64,000 bases of DNA from Pontederia crassipes. Lineage: Eukaryota > Streptophyta > Magnoliopsida > Commelinales > Pontederiaceae. Both the position numbers and the translations under genes were made by a program. The notes beneath the pieces are model-generated. The model was not told where the DNA came from. It ran no database searches and saw only the letters and a program-made list of their open reading frames with translations. Positions 8,596 through 63,866 of the stretch are shown one piece after another; position 1 is the first letter of the stretch, and every line of letters begins with the position of its first letter. The stretch covers positions 65,934,547-65,998,546 of the forward strand of contig CM060194.1 of assembly GCA_030549335.1 (NCBI GenBank), given 5' to 3'.

Positions 8596-9427
8596 AGGTG
8601 CCCTTAATGCTACTCCTACAATTCTTATTGTCACTCCAAACTCATCATTCTACCCTTCATTTATTTTACAATTTTGTTATTAATTCTCTCTCTGTCCCCT
8701 CAACTTTCATCCAACTTTTCTTCTTTAATCATCACACACACTTTCTCTATTCTCTCTCCTAATACTATTGATTATTTAATTAATGATATAAATTAAATTA
8801 TTAAACAAATACATTAATTTAATTAATATGAAACTATAGTAAGATTAGACAAAAAATAAAAATATATTTATTTCTTAAGATTATTAAATTTATCAGGAGT
8901 GTCCGTTGTTTTTTATTTTTTTATTAATAAATTAATAATATATTTTTAAAGTAATTTATTCAATCAATTATCTGTAGTTAAATAAATATTTTTTAAGACA
9001 TGACAACGAATTAAATTGGATATAACACACTTCATAACAAAAAATAAAAAAATAATGGACTAATTATTTTGAAAAATGATTACACTAAAAATAATTTATC
9101 TCTTCTCATTTCCACTTTATTTTATATATTCATAAAATAATATTATATATTTAATCTTGTTGTAATTTATATATTAATTAAATTAATATAATTGTTCAAT
9201 AATCTAAATTATACTATTGATAAAAAAATTAATTAATTGCATGAACCAATAGCATGAAGAAAGAGATTGTAGAGAGTTAATGAGTATGAGATTATTTAAT
9301 AAGTATGATTGAGCAAAAATCGAGGAGACTCAAGAAGAGAATAATAAATAAAGTAAAATAAAATAAAAGGTAAAATGATGAGTTTGGACTGACATTAAGA
9401 ATTTGAGGAGTGGCATTACGGGCACCC
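8596..9427. mobile_element. Non-autonomous MULE-type TIR element (832 bp)
   Basis: The ends are inverted repeats of about 60 bp: the left end begins AGGTGCCCTTAATG and the right end reads GGGTGCCCGTAATG on the opposite strand. The flanking 9-bp direct repeat ATTTCTAAA (8587-8595 and 9428-9436) is exact, which fits Mutator-like transposition. The AT-rich interior has no coding frame. Relatives are at 60068-60915, 61694-62505 and, in reverse, 62942-63866; 14821-15589 has similar ends. Confidence 0.85.
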
Positions 9428-48475: not shown

Positions 48476-49022
48476 GGGGATAAGGATGTTGTGGGTTCAA
48501 AAAATCCCCATATATGTGGGGTATCCTTGGATTTTGATCGGATGGTCGAAAAAATAGCGCAGTTCAAACTTGTATTTAGTTGAGCAATAGCCGGTTCACT
48601 TATGTTAGACCCCTGGTTCACTGGTGTGGGTTCAATATCATGAACTCCCTCTATCTTCATCTTCTCAACCTCCCTCTCTCCTCATCTTCTCTCAGAAATT
48701 AGGGCAAGCTCTGCTACTGCATTTCGCTCCGCCAGGATCGCAGCTGCTGCATTTTTCGGAGGTTACATTTTTGGGAGTAAGTTCCTACCTCTCCTCTTTG
48801 CCACCTGATTTGATCCATGGCATTTCTCTGCTGCTGCTGTGAGCATCTTGAGTTGATGCCTCCCCTCCTGAGCGCCTTGAGTTGCTGCCTCTCTCGCTCT
48901 CTCTGCCAGGACCTCAGCCGTTGTGTTTCCCTGTCGCTGTATACAACCTCCGCCGCGATTTGTTCCTATTTGAGCTCTAATTTTAGCCGCTGCATTTTCA
49001 GGAGACTACATTTCTGGGAGTA
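48476..49022 (+). repeat. Left terminal inverted repeat of the MULE
   Basis: About 547 bp, inverted at the right end. Long shared blocks include TCCCCATATATGTGGGGTAT and TTTGATCGGATGGTCGAAAA. A CT-rich leader-like part follows, and a donor-like GGGA|GTAAG ends it, suggesting that the repeat holds the transposase promoter and first untranslated exon. Confidence 0.85.
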
Positions 49023-49503
49023 AGACCTTACCTCTCCTCTTTGCAACCTGATTTCATCCAAGAAATTTCCTTGTTGTTGCTTGATGTTTCACATATTTGT
49101 TATTCCATTTCAGCTGCTTCATTTGTTGTTCGATGATGCTGCAATATTCTTAGTTCCCCCTCTCATAGCCGCCTTAATTATACCTCACAGATCTTGCAAA
49201 GGTAATCCTTGGGTCATTTAATCATTCACTAGTTTACCATTATGCCTTTCTTACTCACTTATGTTTCATTAAAACTAAGCAACTATGGAAATGTCATAGC
49301 CATCACTACTTCAACCATGTAGGTTATTTGTATATATTTTACTACTATGGATGCAAACAATACACAACCACAAGACTTTGCAAATTACTTGTTATCCTTT
49401 TAGCTTATTGTTTCATTTTGCTTAATGTACTTTTTTTTTCAGCATAGGACAGCATATAATTGAGATACATGATCAACATAATCTTGTTGATAAACCAACT
49501 TTA

Positions 49504-51448
49504 TGTTGGAGCAAAGTTGTTAATCCCTATATAATTATATTTTGATGATACAAACCTCAAAAGATTAAGAGTTATATTTAAAATGTCAAAAAATTTTAAA
49601 TAGAAATTAGTGACTTCATGCACTGAACTTTCAATTAATATTTGTCTATATTTGCATGAGATTTATATTAAGAGATTAATATAAAAGTTATAGATAACTT
49701 TCTTATCTTTCTAGAAAATTAAGAATCACCTCATTGGGACAACCACATAAAACGTTATGTTTAAATGAAGCTCGAAAAGTTCAAATTGCATTTGATATTT
49801 TTATGTACTAAACTTGTACTTAATATTTGAGTATTCCATCATGAGATTTGGATAAAGAGATTAATATAAAAGTTATATATAATCATTTTATATTTTCATA
49901 GAATTAAGAATCACCTCATTTGGACAACCATATCAAAAGTTATGGTAAAAATAGTGAAGATCGACAAGTTCTATTCGAAGTTGATAATTTTATGTGCTGA
50001 ACTTTCATTAAATATTTGATTACTTTATCAACTGATTTGGGATAAGAGATGAGCATGAAAATTGTAAATTAAAGTGTTAGCTTTTCATAGAATTAAATAT
50101 CATCTCATTTGCATACTGGTATGAAAAGTTATGTATAAAAGAGTAAATATATAAAATGTTTCATTTGAAATGGACAACCTTGTGTACTAAACTTTGAATT
50201 AATATTGGACTATGATCTCATTAGATTTTGGATGAATGATGAACATAAAATTATAGAGAATTCTGTTATATTTCTATAGAATAAAAAATGAACTCATTTG
50301 GATACTTGTATGAAAAGTTATGTATAAACGAGTAAGATCTATAAAGTTTAAATTAAAATTGACAACTTTATGCACTGAACTTTGATTGAATATTTGACTA
50401 TGATCTCATTAGATTTTGAATGAATGTGGAAGACAAAATTTGTAGAGCATTTTGTTATCTTTCCATAGAATTAAATATCATCGCATTTGGATAACTGTGC
50501 AAAAAGTTATGTATAAAAGAGTGCAGATGTATAAGGCTGTCAATGACAAAACGGTCGACCGATACATTAACGATCGAACGTTATGGGTAAAAAAGGATGA
50601 ACGGTATAAAACGGACGACAGAATGTGCTGTCGGAATGACCGCTAATCACAGAGACCAAAGACATTTCTAAAACGGACGACCGAAATATTAACGGTCGAC
50701 CGTTATAGGAGCAAAGGCAACAACAACGACTAAAATCCTTCTACGGACTACCAACAACGGATAACTACGCAGAAAAGACAAGCGCAATGACTAGTTACTA
50801 TTCATAACGGTCGACCGTTATCATAGAGCTGACAGCACAATCTTTTTTAATTACTTTACAACGGCCAAATTTTTAAGAGAAGACTATAAAAGGGATCCAA
50901 AAGATTGAAGGAAGATCAACTAAGCAAGCAAATCATTCTAGAGATCCCTTCAAATCCAAACCATTTTTCTTGAGCCGAAGTTGCAAATCATCCCTTCCCT
51001 GTTTTAGTTTCTTAGTAAAAACATTATTTATAAGAAGAGAGCATTGGGGGGAATTCTTGTTTAGATAATTTTTTAGATCTCCTTGTAAGAAGAGGTGTGC
51101 CTTACCTCTTGAGCAAAGAAGAATGTGTTGTGGTGTAAAAAGGGTTATTCGATCTCTCCCTACAAGAAAAGAGAAAGCTAGTGAATTTCCGGCGGTCTCG
51201 AGGTCGAGAAGTCAGAGTGGGGACGTAGGCCAAGGAGTGACTGAACCTCATCAACAAACCACCGTGCATCTCGAGTTTATCTTTCTATCTCTCCTTCCTA
51301 TTCTATTATGCATGTGATTTGATTGCTATTGTGTTGGTTTAAAGATTAACGAGTCAATTTTAAGCTTCCGCTATGATTTTCGTAAAATTGGTATTTTCGA
51401 TTTAAACACCAATTCACCATCCCCCTCTCGGTGCCTTGTGATCCTACA
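49504..51448 (+). repeat. 5' LTR with five tandem units of about 185 bp
   Basis: Long LTR of 1945 bp. From about 49570 to 50520 it holds five imperfect tandem units, each ending in a CATCTCATTTGGATA...AAAAGTTATG block (at about 49726, 49911, 50102, 50290 and 50478). The promoter half follows with palindromic AACGGTCGACCGTT-type motifs and a TATA box. Confidence 0.85.
50884..50892 (+). promoter_or_regulatory. TATA box of the LTR promoter
   Basis: ACTATAAAAGGGATCC lies about 565 bases before the LTR end, downstream of the AACGG/CCGTT palindromes. The same site recurs in the 3' LTR near 53363. It fits the U3/R boundary of a plant LTR. Confidence 0.65.
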
Positions 51449-51503
51449 ATTGGTATCAGAACAAGGTTGCTTTTATTTTAAAGATTTAATCATCTTTTAG
51501 AGC

Positions 51504-52706
51504 ATGGCACTATTTTTAGAAGAATGTCATTCTATTTTCGACCCACCGATTTTTAAAGATCATTCTTTTTATTCTTGGAAAATTAGAATGAAAGCTTATA
51601 TTTGTTCTATTGATTTTGATATGTGTGAAGTTTTGGAAAATGGTTTTGAAAAGCCAAAGAAAATTATAAATGGTGTTCCTATTGATCTTCCATTTTTTTT
51701 AATATGACGATTTTCAAATGTCGATTGAAAATTTTGACTACAATGTCAAAAATGTCTTTTATTCCTCTTTAAACTCTTATGGTATGAATCTTATTTCTAA
51801 ATGCTCCACTTCTCATGAGATTTGGCAAGTTTTGTTAAATAGTTATGAAGGGAGTGAATTTGACAAAAGGAACACATCGTATGTGGACAATGAAGAAAAT
51901 GATAGTTTTACATCCACGACATTCAAAGATGAAGTGTTATGCTTAATGGCCAAAAGTGAGGATAATAAGGTAACGTCAACTTCATCTTCTTCTTCTTCTA
52001 GTGATAGTGATAGTGATAATGATGATGATATTGATATTGCTCTTGATGTTCATAAAGAATTTTCATCTCTTATTCAAAAGCATCTTTCTCTTAAAAAGAA
52101 AATTGAAACATTAATGAATGAGTATATTGCTTTGAAAAATGATTTTGAAAATTTTAAAAAATTGATTCACTCTTATTGGAAATTAAAAATTATGAAGTTT
52201 TGAAGGTAGAAAACTCAAAGTTGATTATATTACAAAATGAATCGCAAAAAACAATAACTTATTTACAAAATGCTTCACATAATAAAAGTGCTATGCCTTT
52301 GAAACATACTAGAAATGTTCAAAAGCCTACTAAAATGTTTGCAAACTCTAATTATTATAGAAAGGAAATGAACTTGAAGAAAAATGTCAAAAATACAAAA
52401 GGATATTATTTGAAATATTCTTATTCTTCAAAATCAAAGCATGCCAGTGATTATTATTTGAAGAATAAACATTATTATGATCGCTCTTTTAATGTTAAAC
52501 ATTTTCATGCTTCTAATTATGATTATTCAAAGTTGAAATATGATCAAAATAATTATGTTATACCATATACTATTTGTCATTATTGTAATGCTCATGGTCA
52601 TTATTCATTTGAATGTCAAATTAAAAAATCTACTAATATGGGCATGAAATTGATGTGGATTCTTAAAGGAACCAAAATTAATCATGTTGGACCCAAACAA
52701 ATTTGA
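51504..52706 (+). pseudogene. Copia gag (UBN2-like), frameshifted
   Basis: Capsid-like gag in three overlapping frames: 51504-51707 (MALFLEECHSIFDPPIFKDH, then YSWKIRMKAYI), 51718-52203 (WQVLLNSYEGSEFDKRNTS and a long Ser/Asp/Asn-rich acidic tract) and 52176-52706. The last frame holds the CCHC zinc knuckle CHYCNAHGHYSFEC (C-x2-C-x4-H-x4-C). The frame breaks lie near 51700 and 52190. It ends just before sequence where protease and integrase would be expected. Confidence 0.85.
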
Positions 52707-52844
52707 GTACCAAAATGTAAATAATTTTTGTTTGTAGGTGTGCTTCACAAAGAATGAGAAGAATGATTCAAGCAAAGTGAAGGCACACATTTTTTGGTAA
52801 AGTATCATTGAATTAAAAGTTTGTAGAGCATTTTGTTATTATTA

Positions 52845-53931
52845 TTATTCATAGTTTGACTATGATCTCATTAGATTTTGAATGATTGTGAATACAAAAT
52901 TTGTAGAGCATTTTGTTATCTTTTCATAGAATTAAATATCATCCCATTTGGATAACTGTGCAAAAAGTTATGTATAAAAGAGTGCAGGTGTATCAAGTTG
53001 TCAATGACAAAACGGTCGACCGATACATTAACGGTCGACCGTTATGGGTAAAAAAGGATGAACGGTTTAAAACGGACGACCGAAGGTGCTGTTGGAACGA
53101 CCGCTAATCACAGAGACCAAAGACATTTCTAAAACGGACGATCGAAACATTAACGGTCGACCGTTATGGGAGCAAAGACAACAACAATGGCTAAAATCCT
53201 TCTACGGACTACCATCAACGGATAACTACGCAGAAAAGACAAGCGCAACGGCTAGTTACTATTCATAACGGTTGACCGTTATCTAAAACGGTCGACCGTT
53301 ATAGAGCTGACAGCACAATCTTTTTTAATTACTTTACAACGGTTAAATTTTTAAGAGAAGCCTATAAAAGGGATCCAAAAAATTGAAGGAAGATCAACTA
53401 AGCAAGCAAATCATTCTAGAGATTCCTTCAAATCCAAACCATTTTTCTTGAGCCGAAGTTGCAAATCATCCCTTCCCTGTTTTAGTTTCTTAGTGAAAAC
53501 ATTATTTGTAAGAAGAGAGCATTGGGGGGAATTCTTGTTTAGATGGTTTTTTAGACCTCCTTGTAAGAAGAGGTGTGTCTTACCTCTTGAGCAAAGAAAA
53601 AAGCGTTGTAGTGTAAAAAGGGTTATTCGATCTCTCCCTACAAGAAAAGAGAAAGCTAGTGAATCTCCGACGGTCTCGAGGTCGAGAAGTCGGAGCAGGA
53701 ACGTAGGTCAAGGTGTGGCTGAACCTCGTCAACAAACCACCGTGCATCTCGAGTTTATCTTTCTCTCTCTCTCCTTCCTACTCTATTATTCATGTGATTT
53801 GATTGCTATTGTGTTAATTTAAATATTAACGAGTCGATTTTAAGCTTTCACGATGATTTTCGTAAAATCGGTATTTTTGATTTAAACACCAATTCAACCC
53901 CCCCCCCCCCTTGGTGCCTTGTGATCCTACA
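52845..53931 (+). repeat. 3' LTR, truncated at its 5' side
   Basis: Matches the last 1.08 kb of the 5' LTR, keeping only one of the five 185-bp units. It holds four exact AACGGTCGACCG motifs (about 53011, 53030, 53152, 53287), one near-copy with TTGACC (53267), the TATA box and a run of C at 53899-53911. Confidence 0.85.
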
Positions 53932-56099
53932 CTTTAGGCATGTTGTTTGATTTAGAAAATGAGGCATATGATTTTTACAATTTATATGCAAGAGCGATGG
54001 GTTTTTCAATGCGAAAATCTTATACCACAAAGTGTAAGAAAACTCGCAAAATTATTAGTAGGTTGCTCGTCTGCTCAAAGTAAGGGCATAAGAATAGTAG
54101 TGATGAAGAGTTGGGAAAACAAATCAAAAGAGAAAAAAAGAACTAAGAGTTGATTGTGATGCCCATTTACAAGTGGCGGTGAGAGGTGACGGAAAGTGGG
54201 AGGTTAAAAAGTTCGAAGAAAAGCACACTCATATTCTTGCTACTCCTACCAAGGTAGCTATGTTGCGTTCTCACAATGAAGCCCACAAAGGTTCTAAGAA
54301 TGCAATAGATGCATTTCATAATGCTGGAATGGGACCATCTTTAATTTCTAAAGTGCTCAACTTTTCAGGTGAACCATTGATTACACCTCAAATTTGTAGT
54401 GACCATTTAAAGAAGACGCGTCAAAGTAATCTAGGTGAGAATTGTATCAGTGTAATTAAATATTTTCAAAAGAAAATGGCCAAAGACAAAAATTTTATTT
54501 TCAGTTAGAAAGTTGATAAGAACAAGGTTGCAAGGTGTGCCTTTTGGACAGATTTTAGATCAAGAGATAGTTATGTGATTTTCAAAGATGTTGTTAGTTT
54601 TGATACAACTTATAGGACGAATAAGTTATGCATGCCTTTCGTGCCATTTACTGGCGTCAACCATCATAGACAATCAATTTTGTTTGGTTGTGCTTTATTA
54701 GCCGATGAAACAGAAAAGACTTTTACTTGGTTATTTGAAACATGGTTAGAATGCATGCATGATAAGCATCCTAAATACATCATTACTGATCAAGATATAG
54801 TTATGGGCAATGCTATTCGAAAAGTGTTTCCAAATACACGACACATGTATTGTATTTGACATATTCAAAGAAATATTATGAGTAATCTTCAAGATTTATA
54901 TGCTCGAGACAACTTTCAACAAGAATATGGAAAAAAGATACATGGTTCATCAAGTATTGAAGCAACATGGTTCATGTTAAAGGAAAAGTTTGAAATTCGA
55001 GATGATCATTGGCTTTCAGTTATGTATGAGAAACGACAACATTGGGCCTCCATTTATTTGAATGATGTATTTGCTGCACGTATGCAAACGACTCAAAGAT
55101 CAGAATGAATGAATTCCTTTTTTGATGGATTCGAGAATTTTAATACATCTTTAATTGAGTTTGTACACCAATATGACAAAGCTGTTTCCACTCGTCGTGA
55201 GGCTAAAAAGTGAGAGAATTTGAAAAATATGAACTCTAAAGCTGCTTTACTTACAAAAAATCAATTAGAGAATCATGCACGAGACGTCTACACTGACAAG
55301 AATTTTCTCATTTTTCAAAAGAAATTTCTACATATGTTTGATTTCAACTCAACCAGAACTGAACAAAAGTCTTGCAAAGCCGTGTTTAATGTGTTCATGG
55401 ATGGAGATGAAAAAGATAAAAAAAGTTATGTTGTGGAATTCAATAATCGCCCAAGTATCTCGCTCAAATGTTCATGCAAAAGATATGAAAGGGATGGCAT
55501 CTTTTGTTCTCATGCATTATACATTCTTAAGATAGAGAATGCCACAAAAATTGCCTGAAAAATATATTATTCATCGTTGGACAATGGATGCTAGATATTC
55601 GACAAAACGTAAAGTTCATGATAGTGCATCCATTTCTAGCCAAGGGCCACACTTCATAACTCCTATTTTGAATTGGAACTTTAGACATAATATGAGGATC
55701 GCAACTTAAATGGGCTTACAATCGCCATATCATTTAGATATTGCAGTCGTGCTAGTGGATGAATTTATTGAAAAATTGTCTCTTGTTCGAGAACACGTTC
55801 CAAGTTCAGCAGGCAACCTTGTCTTAAATCAACCTGAAGGATTAAATAATATTATTATACATGATCCACCTTGTGTTAAAGCAAAAGGAAGATCGGAAAA
55901 GCTTACCAGAATAAAATCTGGTATTGAGATGTCAATATCACAAAAGGGTAAAAAAAAGAGAACACGTCGTAAAATTGAAAAAAAAAATGAGGAGTACATG
56001 ATTAAGTAATTTTTGTTGTCAAATTTATCAACTTTCTCATTCATCATTTCTTGTTAAAAATATCATAACTTTCTCATTCATTATTTTTATTTAAAATAG

Positions 56100-57078
56100 A
56101 GTAAGCAATCCAGCCAAGAAAATCAACCATTATATGTTCAATCAGCATGTCAGGTAGCTATGGGTTTGTGTTTGAAAATATCATAATTACATTTTATACA
56201 TTTTTTTTGTTTAAATCATATTCAACAATCTAGCCAAGGACCTCAGCCAGCATGTCAAGTAACTATGTAGCAATGAAACCAACAAGACTTGCAGAAATTT
56301 GAACCTATTTTTTATTTATGTATACATTTATTTGAAGTGTATGAATTTGCCTTGCATGTTTTGGATGCATACCTACAACATAATCAAGTTGAATTGCAGA
56401 AATTTGAGAACTAGCAAAATTATTAATTTCTTTTTTGGGGATGTATGAGTCGAATGTATGAGATGTAGAACAGCTTTGTTGATGTTCTTAGACAATGATC
56501 ATCAAACCTGGCAACATCTTTTTCTTGAACAATATTATGGCATGTCGAGATTATTTTGGATACTCAATGAAGTAGACTTCTTGTATTTGATTATTTAATT
56601 GCTATAAAGTTATGTTGTGGTACGTGTTGGGGGTTTATGCTGTGTGATTGTTGAATACTCCTGCACATATCAAACAAGCACAACCAGAACATGTTGTGAT
56701 AGTTGTTGGGGCTTATGTTTTATAGTTGTTATTGCTCCTACAATTGAACTTTTACCATAAATTTGCTATGAAAAAGATGTGATTTCATCAAAAATCATGT
56801 TCTTGGCAAGATCACAATTAAAATCATCATGTTACAATCAAACATTCAAAGCTTTCAGAACTTTTAAAAAGCATCCTTTCATTATCAAACAGTGAAGAGT
56901 ACCAAATTATATTTTGTTCAACAATTAATAACTCACAGAAGCTCACAACTACATAGTACCAAACTACACCATGATAACTATAGAGTTTACAACTACAAAG
57001 GTACCAAACTGCACCATGACAACTACAAAGTTTGTCAAATGAATCTTCCAAATACATGACATATTATGACGCCTACTA
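56100..57078. other. MULE interior between the two convergent genes
   Basis: No coding region recognised. The stretch holds the 3' ends of both genes; a GCACCATG-containing near-repeat around 56970 and 57010 is the only local structure. Confidence 0.4.
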
Positions 57079-57527
57079 TTAAATATAATATTTTTTTCTC
57101 GCTTGAGCCTTCGAATAGAGTCTTTTGGAGTCTTCATACGTCAAAATCTTATTAAGCAGTCCAAGTAGAATGATGCGATGCTTGTCCATGTTACATCTTT
57201 TGTTTTCATTCACTCCGTTATCAGCAAGCAATTCGATTAGAATAATTTTATGTTGATCTTCTACAATTGGATCCATCCATTGAAAGAAAACACAGTCTCG
57301 ATATTGAACCTGCAACGGAAATACTAATCTTTAGAAATATAATTACAATGGATTAACTTGAATGGAGAAATCATTTGTTTTAGTACACGGAAATGAGGAC
57401 ATCGTCAGAAGCGTCTTACTAGATTATTGGTTGTCCATGACATCATTAAGTTCGCCTTATCTCCGCATGCACAAAATGGAGTATCGAAGTCATATGACGG
57501 ATATGAAAAGCAAATTAAAGATGACAT
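57079..57527 (-). pseudogene. GRF-type zinc-finger gene carried by the MULE, one stop
   Basis: Two exons on the minus strand: 57527-57387, starting at ATG (MSSLICFSYPSYDFDTPF), and 57309-57079. The intron has a GT donor after CGT and the acceptor TTGCAG. The joined reading gives the GRF zinc-finger pattern: CACG, SWTTNN, RRF, RCPHF, then CVFFQWMDP (C-x-C-G ... C ... C-x-F-F-x-W), followed by a charged, helix-prone tail. Length would be 123 residues. One in-frame TGA at 57405-57407 sits right after RRF. GRF fingers bind single-stranded DNA in several DNA-repair proteins; the role in a transposon is unknown. Confidence 0.72.
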
Positions 57528-57744
57528 CTAGTTGAAAAGTATTAGTATTGCTCTAGAAATCAGTCTGAAATGAACAAGAGTTTATAAATAAAGATCTGAG
57601 AATCAATTATTGCAACCTATAGAAAATATTTTTAATATGTTAATACACAAGCTACATGTTAATATGAATACTCTTATCACTAATTTGTTAATCTGAAAAG
57701 TGAAAACTACCTTCCACAAAAGAAAACTAAGTTAGTAGCAGATC

Positions 57745-58390
57745 GAGCCACCCAGAAATGTAGGCTCCTGAAAATGTAGCCGTTGAAATCAAAGCGCAAA
57801 TAGGAACAAGTCACGGCGGAGGTTGTACACAGCGATAGGAAAACATAGCGACTGAGGTCTTGGCGCTTACAGGAAATGTCTTTTGTGGCAGCAACTCAAG
57901 GCGCTCACATAAAATGTCTGATGGCAAGGAGGGGAGGCATCAACTCAAGATGCCCACAGCAGCAGTAGGGAAATGCCATGGATCAAATCAGGTGGCAAAA
58001 AGGAGAGGCAGGAACTTACTCCTAGAAATGTAGCCTCCCGAAAATGCACCGGCTGAAATCAGAGCGCAAACAGGTGATGTCACGACGGAGGATGAACACG
58101 ACGACGGGGAAATGCAGCGGCTGCGATCCTGACGAAGCGAAATGCAGCAGCAGAGCTTGCCCTAATTTCCGTGAGAAGATGAGGAGAGAGGGAGGTTGAG
58201 AAGACGAAGACAGAGGGAGGTCGTGATATTGAACCCACACCAGTGAACCGAGGGTCCAACATAAGTGAACTAGCTACTGTTCAACTAAATACAAGTATGA
58301 ATCGCGCTATTTTTTCGACCATCCGATCAAAATCCAAGGATACCCCACATATATATGGGGATTTTTTCTATCCACACCATCCTTATCCCC
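57745..58390 (-). repeat. Right terminal inverted repeat of the MULE
   Basis: Inverted match of the left repeat, slightly longer (about 646 bp) because of an extra internal segment duplicating the AGGAG-TACATTTCTGGG portion. It should drive the minus-strand GRF gene. Confidence 0.85.
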
Positions 58391-58585: not shown

Positions 58586-60013
58586 TTGGCTCCAATGGAG
58601 ACCGCAGGGCAATCACTTCACGGTGGAGTGGCGGTGGTCGTCGTCCCCTTCTTAGCCCAAAGCCACCTCAACCTACTCCTCGACCTCTCCCTCCTCCTCT
58701 CCGGCCGCGGCCTCAGCGTCCACTACGCCACGTCCGTCATCCACGTCCGGCAGGTCAAGTCCCGCGTGCAAGGATGGGACGCCGCCTCCGTCGGCAGCAT
58801 CCACTTCCATGAGCTCCCCATCCCTCCTTTCAGCAGCCCGCCGCCCACCCGACGCCCCGGTACCAACTTCCCGCCCCAAAACGAGCAGCTGTTCCGAGCC
58901 CTGGAGCACCTGCGGGCGCCGCTCGCGTCGTTCCTCCGCTCCATCTCAGCCTCCTGCTCGCGGCTCGTCGTGATCCACGACCCCCTCGTCGCGTTCGCCG
59001 CCGTCGACGCCTCGTCGCTCCCCAACGCCGAGACCTACACGTTCAACTGCGTCTCTGCGACATGTCAGCTGGTGTTTGATCGCGCACTCGAAGGCAAGCC
59101 CGTCGAGGACGTGCTGAAGGTTCTCGGCATCGCCGCTGTTCCATCCATGGCCGAGAGCGTGGACATGACGGAAGGCTTCAAGGTCTTCATCGACCGCCAC
59201 TGGGATCAAAACTACGAGAACCCGGGCATGCTATTCAATTCCTGCCGGCCCGTGGAGGGCGAGATCTTAGATTTGATCGCGCAAGAACCTCGGCGTCTCA
59301 ACAAGAAAATATTCGCAATCGCGCCACTCAATCCAGCGCTCAAAACCAAAGAATCCGAACGCCCTAGCGGCCACGAGTGCCTGCGCTGGTTGGACAAGCA
59401 ACCGCCGGCGTCTGTTGTGTACGTGTCATTCGGGTCGGCGACGACAATCACCAACGAACAGGTCGAGCAGCTGGCCGTCGGGCTTCAACGCAGCGGCCGG
59501 CGTTTCCTCTGGGTGCTGCGGGATCCCGATCGGGCCGACATCTTCGCCGAGGACGGCAGGAGCCACCCGCGGGAAGCCCTGCCCCGAGACTACGAGAAGA
59601 ACGTGGAGGGCACGGGGATTGTGGTGCGGGACTGGGCACCGCAGCTGGAGGTCTTGGCACACCCATCGACGGCGGCGTTCATGAGTCACTGCGGGTGGAA
59701 CTCGTGCCTGGAGAGCCTCAGCAACGGCGTTCCCATGATCGCGTGGCCGATGCACTCAGACCAGCCGATCTGCGCGGCGCTCGTGGCGAACTACTTGAAG
59801 ACTGGCGTCACGGTCAGTGGCTGGGAGCGTAACGGCGAGGTCGTCGGCGCGGGAGCCGTGGAAGAGTCGATAGAGATGTTAATGGGCTCCGACGAAGGGA
59901 AGGAGATCAGGGGGCGCGCCAAGGCCGTGGCCGTGGCGATCAAGGCGGCGGCGGCGGAGGGCGGGTCTTCGCGTGCAGACTTTGACGCGTTTGTTGAACA
60001 CGTAACCAGATGA
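58586..60013 (+). CDS. UDP-glycosyltransferase, zeatin O-glucosyltransferase-like
   Basis: Intact single-exon family 1 UGT of 475 residues, likely cytosolic, transferring a sugar from a UDP-sugar to a small acceptor. Catalytic His27 is in FLAQSHLNLLLDLS. The 44-residue PSPG box spans 350-393 (WAPQLEVLAH ... HCGWNS ... DQ), ending in the Gln linked with UDP-glucose use. Segments such as FLAQSHLNLLLDL, FNSCRPVEGEILDLIA and CLRWLDKQPPASVVYVSFGS fit the cytokinin O-glucosyltransferase clade (UGT93), whose members glucosylate zeatin. The acceptor is inferred, not shown. A second Met at residue 4 could be the start. Very high GC content, typical of monocot UGTs. The large MULE ends 187-196 bp upstream. 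Confidence 0.92.
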   Translation: MAPMETAGQSLHGGVAVVVVPFLAQSHLNLLLDLSLLLSGRGLSVHYATSVIHVRQVKSRVQGWDAASVGSIHFHELPIPPFSSPPPTRRPGTNFPPQNEQLFRALEHLRAPLASFLRSISASCSRLVVIHDPLVAFAAVDASSLPNAETYTFNCVSATCQLVFDRALEGKPVEDVLKVLGIAAVPSMAESVDMTEGFKVFIDRHWDQNYENPGMLFNSCRPVEGEILDLIAQEPRRLNKKIFAIAPLNPALKTKESERPSGHECLRWLDKQPPASVVYVSFGSATTITNEQVEQLAVGLQRSGRRFLWVLRDPDRADIFAEDGRSHPREALPRDYEKNVEGTGIVVRDWAPQLEVLAHPSTAAFMSHCGWNSCLESLSNGVPMIAWPMHSDQPICAALVANYLKTGVTVSGWERNGEVVGAGAVEESIEMLMGSDEGKEIRGRAKAVAVAIKAAAAEGGSSRADFDAFVEHVTR

Positions 60014-61693: not shown

Positions 61694-62505
61694 TTGGGTG
61701 CTTCTAATGACACTCCTTCAATTTTTATTATCATTTTAAATTCATCATTCTACTTTTTATTTATTTTATAATTTTGCTATTAATTCTCTTTTTGTCCCCT
61801 CAACTTCCACCTAACTTTTCTTTTTTAATCATCACACACACTTTCTCTATTCTTTCTCCTGATACTATTTATTATTTAATTAATGATATAAATTAAATTA
61901 TTAAACAAATATATTAATTTAATTAATATGAAAACTATAATAAGATTAGAAAAAATAATAATAATATATTTATTTCTTAAGATTATTAAATTTATGAGGA
62001 GTGTCCGTTATTTTTTATTTTTTTGTTAATAAATTAATAATATATTTTTTAAAGCAATTTATTCAATTAATTATTTGTAGTTAAATAAATATTTTTTAAA
62101 ACATGACAACGAATTATATTGGATATAACACACTTCTTAACAAAAAATTAAAAAAAAAACAATGAACTAAGTATTTTGAAAAACGATTACACTAAAAATA
62201 ATTTATCTCTTCTCATTTTCACTTTATTTTATATATTCATAAAATAACATTATATATTTAATCTTGTTGTAATTTGTATATTAATTAAATTAATATGTTT
62301 GTTCAATAATCTAAATTATACTATTAACTAAAAAATTAATTAATTACATGAACCAATAGCATCAAGAAAGAGATTGTTGAGAGTTAATGAATATAAAATT
62401 ATTTAATAAGCATGATTGAGTGAAAATCGAGGAGACTCAAAGACAGAATAATAAATAAAGTAAAATAAAATAAAGGGTAAAATGATGAGTTTAAAGTGAT
62501 ATTAA
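61694..62505. mobile_element. Copy of the small MULE family
   Basis: Nearly collinear with 8596-9427 from GGGTGCTTCTAATGACACTC to GATGAGTTTAAAGTGATATT, including TTAAATTTATGAGGAGTGTC. The outermost right terminus is lost. Confidence 0.8.
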
Positions 62506-62941
62506 GAATATCCCTTTTTTTATTTCGTAAAAAATCATGATATTATATATTTAGTTTTTAAGGATTTAATATTATGTTTTTTACAAGAAAAATACCAATA
62601 TTTTAAATTAAAAAGTTGATTATATAGATATATAGGTTTGTACTGCTCACGTATAAGCCGTAAATTACAGCTTTTGAGTCGCTGGATTAAAATCGATGGC
62701 GATCGAGAGTAAAAAAAGAGTTTACTACGATCTCCTCCGGGAGTTGTCAGTCCTTTTCTTCTATCTTTCCTCCACCTGGCTAGCTCCCAATCGCATGCAG
62801 ATCTCACTCTCCCCCCAACTCTTTCTCGTGTGTACAGTTTCTCTCTCTCTCTCTCTCCAATCTTCCTCCATCCACCTGGTACCTGGTTACTAGTAAGAAT
62901 TTTTAATATTAAAAATGGCAGCATGACCCATGCTAAACACA
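62506..62941. other. Spacer between MULE-family copies
   Basis: No gene seen. A GC-richer patch at 62700-62890 with a CT run (62840-62870) has no recognisable coding content. Confidence 0.4.
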
Positions 62942-63866
62942 TGGATGCCCCCCTCAAATTCTTAATATCACTTTAAACTCATCATTTTATTTTTTATTTT
63001 ATTTATTATTCTCTCTTTTAAATCTCCTCAATTTTCATTCAATCATACTCATTAAATAATTTCATACTCATTAACTCTCTGCAATATCTTTCTTCGTACT
63101 ATTAGTTCATGTAATTAATTAATTTTCTTATCAATAGTATATTTTAAATTATTAAACAAACATATTAATTTAATTAATATATAAATTACAATAAGATTAA
63201 ATATATAATATTATTTTATGAATATATAAAATAAAGTGGAAATGAGAAAAGATAAATTAGTTTTAGTGTAATCGTTTTTCAAAATAATTAGTTCATTATT
63301 TTTTTTTATGTTTTATTAAGAAGCGTGCTATATCTAATTTAATTCATTGTCATATCTTAAAAAATATTTATTTAACTACAAATAATTTATTGAATAAATT
63401 GCTTTAAAAAATATATTATTGATTTATTAACAAAAAAATAAAAAACAACGGACACTCCTCGTAAATTTAATAATCTTAAGAAATAAATATATTTTTATTT
63501 TTCGTCTAATCTTATTGTGGTTTTCATATTAATTAAATTAATATATTTGTTTAATAATTTAATTTATATCATTAATTAAATAATAAATAGTATCATGAGA
63601 AAGAATAGAGAAAGTGTGTGTGATGATTAAAAAAGAAAAGTTAGGTGGAAGTTGAGGGGACATAAAGAGAATTAATAGTAAAATTATAAAATAAATAAAA
63701 AGTAGAATGATGAATTTAAAATGTGTGTGATGATTAAAGAAGAAAAGTTGGGTGAAAATTAAGAGGATAGAGAGAGAATTAATAGCAAAATTGTAAAATA
63801 AATTAAGAGTAGAATGATGAATTTAGAGTGACAATAAGAATTGGAGTGTGGCATTAAGAGCACCGC
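62942..63866. mobile_element. Reverse-oriented copy of the small MULE family
   Basis: Matches the reverse complement of 8596-9427 from GGATGCCC to GCATTAAGAGCACC. An internal segment of about 107 bp near the right end (63612-63721) is duplicated in tandem at 63722-63832, sharing GTGTGTGATGATTAAA and AGTAGAATGATGAATTTA. Confidence 0.8.

Follow-up and report, generated by a model that had tools for sequence, protein, structure and literature searches.

A Mutator-like element (MULE) with two convergent genes occupies positions 48476..58390 of a 64,000-nucleotide stretch of Pontederia crassipes DNA (assembly GCA_030549335.1, contig CM060194.1, positions 65,934,547 to 65,998,546; hereafter the window). 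Its FAR1-type transposase gene lies on the + strand, and a second gene, on the - strand, encodes a GRF zinc-finger protein. We read the element as a decayed autonomous FAR1-type MULE from a lineage in which both genes are usual, and the GRF protein as probably a working helper, and we give this reading a probability of about 0.6. A working helper was preferred to an accident because the pairing recurs across elements and looks as if it were kept by selection. The window copy is a relic that is unlikely to make either protein, since a long terminal repeat (LTR) element has inserted into it, its transposase frame contains stops, and its GRF gene has acquired both a stop and an insertion of 10 bp. 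The biology was therefore read from its relatives. To judge from these sequences, FAR1-type MULEs of this genome have a second gene that is recurrent and selected. A recurrent second gene is new to the FAR1-type MULEs, a kind known from elements with one gene such as Jittery, and the role of MULE helper genes can now be approached with a defined domain.

Pairing of the two genes across the genome

The source assembly (1.13 Gb, 43 contigs) was searched for both genes. The Pfam model gave at least 46 GRF matches (150 of 1180 candidates scored), and the GRF protein of a related copy, L011, gave at least 218, of which 150 were listed (150 of 1290 candidates scored). The N-terminal 322 residues of the transposase of another copy, L009, gave at least 125 matches (124 of 4061 candidates scored). 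Coordinates were then matched between the merged lists, which comprise 168 GRF places and 124 transposase places, and the resulting pair counts are lower bounds. As a result, 23 of the 124 listed transposase places had a listed GRF place no more than 6 kb away. The two genes converged in 22 of these 23 pairs, and in 19 of the 22 they lay 1.9–2.9 kb apart. Chance yielded a mean of 0.29 pairs and a maximum of 3 (2000 random shifts) versus the 23 observed.

Sixteen further transposase places without a listed GRF place were sampled, namely the first 8 such places (66–76% identical to the query) and 8 places at 57–62% identity picked for stop-free frames. When the 3.8 kb downstream was read with exon profiles, a GRF gene was found in 12 of the 16, always on the opposite strand and convergent; the weakest of these was L045 (1.5e-4 and 0.004). 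The same search found GRF in none of 13 control windows, with a single chance-level match (E 0.45). In the reverse check, four of ten selected GRF places without a listed transposase were examined; all four proved to have a converging one, and no transposase was found in 16 control windows. The pairing thus recurs, fixed in orientation, even in elements with as little as ~57% transposase identity to the query.

Close relatives were collected with the left terminal repeat, which gave 37 matches in the assembly; 16 surrounding stretches were fetched and compared with the element by blastn. Both genes were present in L009, L010, L011 and L013, with the main gene-bearing pieces 90–92% identical. 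L018 is more diverged, with transposase pieces 80–84% and the GRF stretch 78% identical, and most of its other sequence, including the intergenic part, did not align. L014 retains GRF exon 1 only, and L012 a 0.16-kb transposase stub without GRF; both look like deletion derivatives. The remaining nine stretches (L015–L017 and L019–L024) gave no nucleotide match to either gene by blastn, a protein-level search not having been run. The original prediction had named the absence of the GRF gene from other copies as the sign of a one-off capture. Some copies do lack a complete gene, namely L014, L012 and 4 of the 16 sampled places, but L009, L010, L011, L013 and L018 keep it, and the genome-wide excess of convergent pairs points the same way.

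Four of the stretches without a gene match (L016, L017, L019 and L024) contain paired inverted repeats 0.7–2.4 kb apart whose tips resemble the first ~60–90 bp of the MULE, the likeness of L024 coming from the left-repeat search alone. These are probably short, non-autonomous relatives.

GRF-like sequence is very abundant in this genome, with 1180 (Pfam model) and 1290 (L011 query) first-look candidates, and the pairing offers a reason for this abundance. The GRF places C9:52440374/52442665 and C10:27327675/27329255 resemble a duplicated multi-finger gene, which is perhaps a host gene.

Selection, shared descent and the GRF protein

Nine elements, L025–L033, were fetched for having a listed GRF place and fairly open frames; they are therefore uninformative on prevalence. 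Codon alignments of the GRF gene from nine elements gave 36 pairs. For the 35 whose dS could be computed, the ratio of nonsynonymous to synonymous substitution (dN/dS) was 0.14–0.67 and hence always below 1, many of these pairs being near dS saturation. In the 36th pair, L018–L027, dS was saturated and the ratio of the corresponding proportions (pN/pS) was 0.45. Misread N-terminal codons of L032 in this set can only raise the L032 values. The least-saturated pairs gave 0.20 (bootstrap 0.10–0.36), 0.29 (0.17–0.49) and 0.47 (0.28–0.79); the window copy against L018 gave 0.27, and the close family pooled gave 0.31. The check that the original prediction had proposed, for values below 1 in both genes, thus came out positive for the GRF gene in this genome, and the alignments indicate that this gene is under purifying selection.

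Maximum-likelihood trees of the transposase and of the GRF protein have the groups L011+L018, L029+L032 and L026+L027+L033 in common. The group L025+L030 also appears in both, but the GRF of L028 falls beside that of L030 (support 90/88). L028 has a long-branched, distant transposase (55% identical), yet its GRF is L030-like (73% over 81 residues of exon 2). Without L018 and L028, the distances of the two genes correlate with r 0.67 (p 0.004); correlations are given with and without L018 because frame shifts had corrupted its row in the transposase alignment. The pairing thus appears to stem in the main from shared descent, and at least one exchange has probably occurred. L028 (C10:22641834) and L053 (C5:48727847) belong to a distant transposase lineage and are mutually 86–90% identical over the main pieces; the L025/L030-type GRF of L028 is a possible swap of the second gene.

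The GRF protein is about 130 residues long and, in readable copies, consists of an N-terminal finger, a linker and a hydrophobic segment near the C-terminus. Its intron lies just ahead of the last conserved cysteine, and the GT was co-positioned in 11 of 12 loci with a placeable GT-AG. As exceptions, the intron of L018 is shifted by about one base with the frame compensated, that of L009 carries a deletion, and the exons of L026 could not be joined in frame. PF06839 matched 7 of 7 scanned related proteins (E up to 0.01), and the five shown singly were all above the cut-off. Pfam found no enzyme domain in these proteins. Against structures, the GRF profile matched NEIL3 (7jl5, 2e-8; 7omk, 1e-6), then ZCCHC4 (0.04), and gave one chance-level match. 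DUF730 (PF05325) is a plant family, and L033 alone among the seven proteins matched it (6.6e-4), over the GRF stretch and at 20.2 bits versus a cut-off of 32; membership of DUF730 was therefore not counted. When viral contigs were scanned with the GRF protein, 37 pattern matches came up, of which none was confirmed.

The hydrophobic tail goes beyond what the original prediction had claimed, and it is an unexpected, membrane-like feature for the helper protein of a DNA transposon. In the nearer group, each of the nine GRF proteins typed has a hydrophobic segment of 19 residues (mean hydropathy 1.77–3.35), which ends 0–3 residues before the stop except in L032, where 8 residues follow. The frames of L036 and L038 were too damaged to tell, and in L034 and L037 the tail lies downstream of frame breaks. 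In the deep group, with transposases 57–62% identical, the linker is unlike that of the nearer group and the tail is kept in 6 of 8 copies (hydropathy 1.69–2.83); L048 stops ahead of the tail and the frame of L031 is broken ahead of it. Shuffled linkers reached the observed tail value in 0–118 of 5000 trials per copy (15 copies). As in tail-anchored proteins, a single hydrophobic segment lies within the last ~30 residues, and the segment is suggestive of a tail anchor, an oligomerising helix being possible as well. The window copy reads as a soluble protein, but this version was rejected, as its tail is lost by a frame shift from a 10-bp insertion that is unique relative to the aligned copies. 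The original prediction had considered a role in end processing or repair conceivable; with the tail present in relatives, a simple soluble repair factor becomes less obvious.

We propose that each of the two genes would be expressed from a terminal repeat of its own. The GRF protein may bind single-stranded nucleic acid, by analogy with the NEIL3 finger, while its tail might anchor it in a membrane (endoplasmic reticulum or nuclear envelope) or drive oligomerisation. Like MURB for MuDR, it would then assist its element in trans. Most likely it would hold the single-stranded intermediates that arise during excision, insertion or gap repair; alternatively, it might shield element nucleic acid from the host. 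The GRF protein would in this way be a conserved, mudrB-like helper, possibly a membrane-anchored one.

Known systems and competing explanations

The original prediction compared the layout with that of MuDR, and this likeness held: as in MuDR of maize (mudrA and mudrB), there are long inverted repeats, 9-bp target copies and a second gene running opposite to the transposase, convergent here and in 22 of the 23 listed pairs. The window lineage differs in its FAR1-type transposase and GRF finger protein, and its second gene resembles mudrB in layout. MURB of MuDR is a help protein without which insertion is said to fail or suffer, being called crucial for it, and Os3378 and Muta1 are noted to transpose in yeast (PMC9168764). 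By domain make-up, the window element is Jittery-like. In the Jittery group of FAR1-type MULEs, from maize and others, the transposase likewise has FAR1 at the N-terminus and SWIM near the C-terminus. In contrast to the one open reading frame (ORF) there, a second, GRF gene is present here and usual in the window lineage. Plant Jittery-group MULEs are tabulated with one ORF, with FAR1 and SWIM or CCHC (PMC6446971, Table 1, group 36), maize Jittery is presented with a transposase gene only (PMC9168764), and it is described as being without mudrB-homologous sequence (PMC9569675).

The Abermu MULEs of grasses and other plants share a second ORF in reverse orientation, ORFR. One type of it lies between the transposase and the 3' repeat, diverging faster than the transposase with Ka/Ks <1, and Abermu is placed beside MuDR, far from Jittery (PMC9168764). 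The account in PMC9168764 names no domain for ORFR, unlike the GRF finger of the window lineage. The word GRF is absent from the main text of PMC9168764 and of PMC6446971. In a comparative study of Asteraceae, the domains singled out as notable include GRF-type fingers along with (retro)transposon domains (PMC10359422). The NEIL3 fingers belong, by sequence, to the same family (PF06839; 7jl5, 7omk), but they are appendages of a repair enzyme, whereas the finger makes up nearly half of the tailed MULE protein. The original prediction knew of no described FAR1-type MULE with GRF as its second gene, and we found no description of a GRF gene in any MULE among the matches listed from the open-licence PMC literature, which were in part the best 20 of 21, 15 of 23, 15 of 151 and 15 of 106.

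A host gene fragment captured once by the window copy in Pack-MULE style, as a functionless passenger, is very improbable. MULEs do capture host sequence, Jittery-like ones included, as the ULP1 domain in grapevine and melon elements illustrates (PMC2528002), and the GRF frame of the window copy is broken. A single capture is contradicted by the recurrence in other copies, the fixed convergent orientation, the conserved intron and dN/dS well below 1. For this genome it is refuted by the pairing excess, these dN/dS values and the GRF genes found downstream in 12 of 16 sampled places.

We also consider it unlikely that the GRF protein is an anti-silencing or expression factor like VANC of VANDAL elements, which would relieve host repression and not assist transposition. 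To our knowledge, VANC-like proteins are not GRF fingers, and this was counted against such a role; the GRF finger, moreover, points to single-stranded nucleic acid. The fast divergence outside the finger, with deep copies keeping only finger and tail, would fit an arms race, and the vanC gene on an Arabidopsis element provides a precedent for anti-silencing (PMC6446971). We hold it to be distinctly improbable that MULE lineages repeatedly gained and exchanged GRF genes drawn from a large family, mobile or host, so that their presence would reflect traffic and not long co-inheritance. This reading draws on L028, with its 55%-identical transposase and L030-like GRF, and on the great number of GRF-like places (1180 and 1290 first-look candidates). 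Apart from L028, however, four groups of the transposase tree reappear in that of GRF, the distance correlation stands at r 0.67 (p 0.004) without L028 and L018, and nearly all of the copies examined are consistent in orientation, spacing and intron.

Several observations weigh against a helper gene that is usual in this lineage. Of the 168 GRF places listed, only 23 have a listed transposase as partner, both lists being lower bounds; the proportion is 3 of 46 for places from the Pfam model and 20 of 122 for those from the L011 query. One of the 23 pairs, C1:21786103, is not convergent, with GRF upstream on the same strand. In four of the 16 sampled places (L035, L039, L041 and L043) no GRF was found in the 3.8 kb read: three gave no match, and L041 a chance-level one (E 9.8). 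Jittery is described without a GRF gene, and therefore not all FAR1 MULEs need one. The mismatch of L028 means that the two genes are not always transmitted as a unit, and with L028 included the distance correlation is weak (r 0.31, p 0.019, ten elements; r 0.27, p 0.049 without L018). Clear target copies were not found in 5 of 10 tested elements (L009, L010, L018, L027 and L028). The tail was called from hydropathy alone, and the shuffles make single copies suggestive and not decisive. A structure prediction for GRF from a two-row alignment of unspliced frames reached a predicted local distance difference test (pLDDT) score of 34 and was not used.

The helper reading can be extended to a large plant clade of FAR1-type MULEs that encodes a membrane-anchored, single-strand-binding finger tethering intermediates or transcripts at the nuclear envelope or endoplasmic reticulum; this extension is tentative and, in our view, rather doubtful. 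We know of no DNA transposon for which membrane tethering by an element-encoded tail-anchored protein has been described. If it were true, many small GRF-type genes annotated in plant genomes would be transposon helper genes.

The window copy and its surroundings

The features of the window copy are collected in Table 1. Its tips, GGGGATAAGG...CCTTATCCCC, abut a copy of TTTTTTAAA on either side, and both the exact 9-bp target copies and the long inverted repeats of the original prediction were recovered. The repeats are 91% identical across ~281 bp at the tips, with gapped similarity to ~540–640 bp; such repeats, with a target duplication of 8–11 bp (mostly 9), characterize MULEs. For two 9-mers drawn at random from the window, the rate of a match is 5e-5, but the target copy alone is moderate evidence because TTTTTTAAA consists of A and T only. 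In the target-copy test of ten copies, all 9 bases agreed in the window copy, L012, L025 and L026, and 8 of 9 in L014; the exact copies of L025 and L026 flank two-gene elements.

Table 1. Features of the MULE copy, in window positions
Feature	Position	Strand	Remark
Left 9-bp target site duplication TTTTTTAAA	48467..48475		exact match to right copy
Left terminal inverted repeat	48476..49018	+	outer ~280 bp 91% identical to right, inner part gapped
Transposase frame, 5' piece (IIEIHDQHNLVDKPTL)	49456..49503	+	truncated by nested insertion; frame continuous in L010
Nested LTR element, 4.4 kb	49504..53931	+	target copy CTTTA at 49499-49503 and 53932-53936
Transposase frame, remainder	53937..56009	+	in-frame stops and frame shifts
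FAR1 DNA-binding domain, C-terminal part	54119..54241	+	PF03101, 1.1e-7
MULE transposase domain	54590..54856	+	PF10551, 2.5e-31
SWIM zinc finger	55466..55519	+	PF04434, 6.4e-5
GRF exon 2 (last cysteine of finger, linker)	57079..57309	-	10-bp insertion shifts frame ahead of hydrophobic tail
GRF intron, GTACTA...TTGCAG	57310..57386	-	position matches related elements
GRF exon 1 (most of finger)	57387..57527	-	TGA at 57407-57405
Right terminal inverted repeat	57751..58390	-	pairs with left repeat
Right 9-bp target site duplication TTTTTTAAA	58391..58399		exact match to left copy

The FAR1, MULE and SWIM domains on the + strand bear out the predicted FAR1 transposase, and the PF10551 match places it in the MULE superfamily. 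The second gene is spliced and lies near the right repeat, as had been claimed, with two exons on the - strand and a start codon ~220 bp inward of the repeat. The predicted GRF finger was confirmed in the joined translation with X at the stop (PF06839, 28.7 bits versus a cut-off of 25.9, E 1.4e-6); the frame with exon 2 alone stayed below the Pfam cut-off at 12.3 bits.

The nested LTR element, which the original prediction did not mention, splits the transposase frame; it is absent from L009, L010 and L013, where the sequence is continuous across the insertion point. It contains gag-like ORFs only, and its profile matches to copia-type gag and a zinc knuckle are weak, below the cut-off. The left LTR is ~1.9 kb long with internal ~190-bp tandem repeats, and the right LTR is alignable over ~1.1 kb only; the alignable parts are 92% identical.

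The MULE sits just upstream of a UDP-glucosyltransferase gene, whose open frame of 472 residues (PF00201, 8.9e-24; 58595-60013, +) starts ~205 bp past its right end. An ~800-bp repeat occurs three times in the window (8605-9402, 61705-62509 and 62958-63723), the copies being 90–92% alike and the last two inverted, ~450 bp apart.

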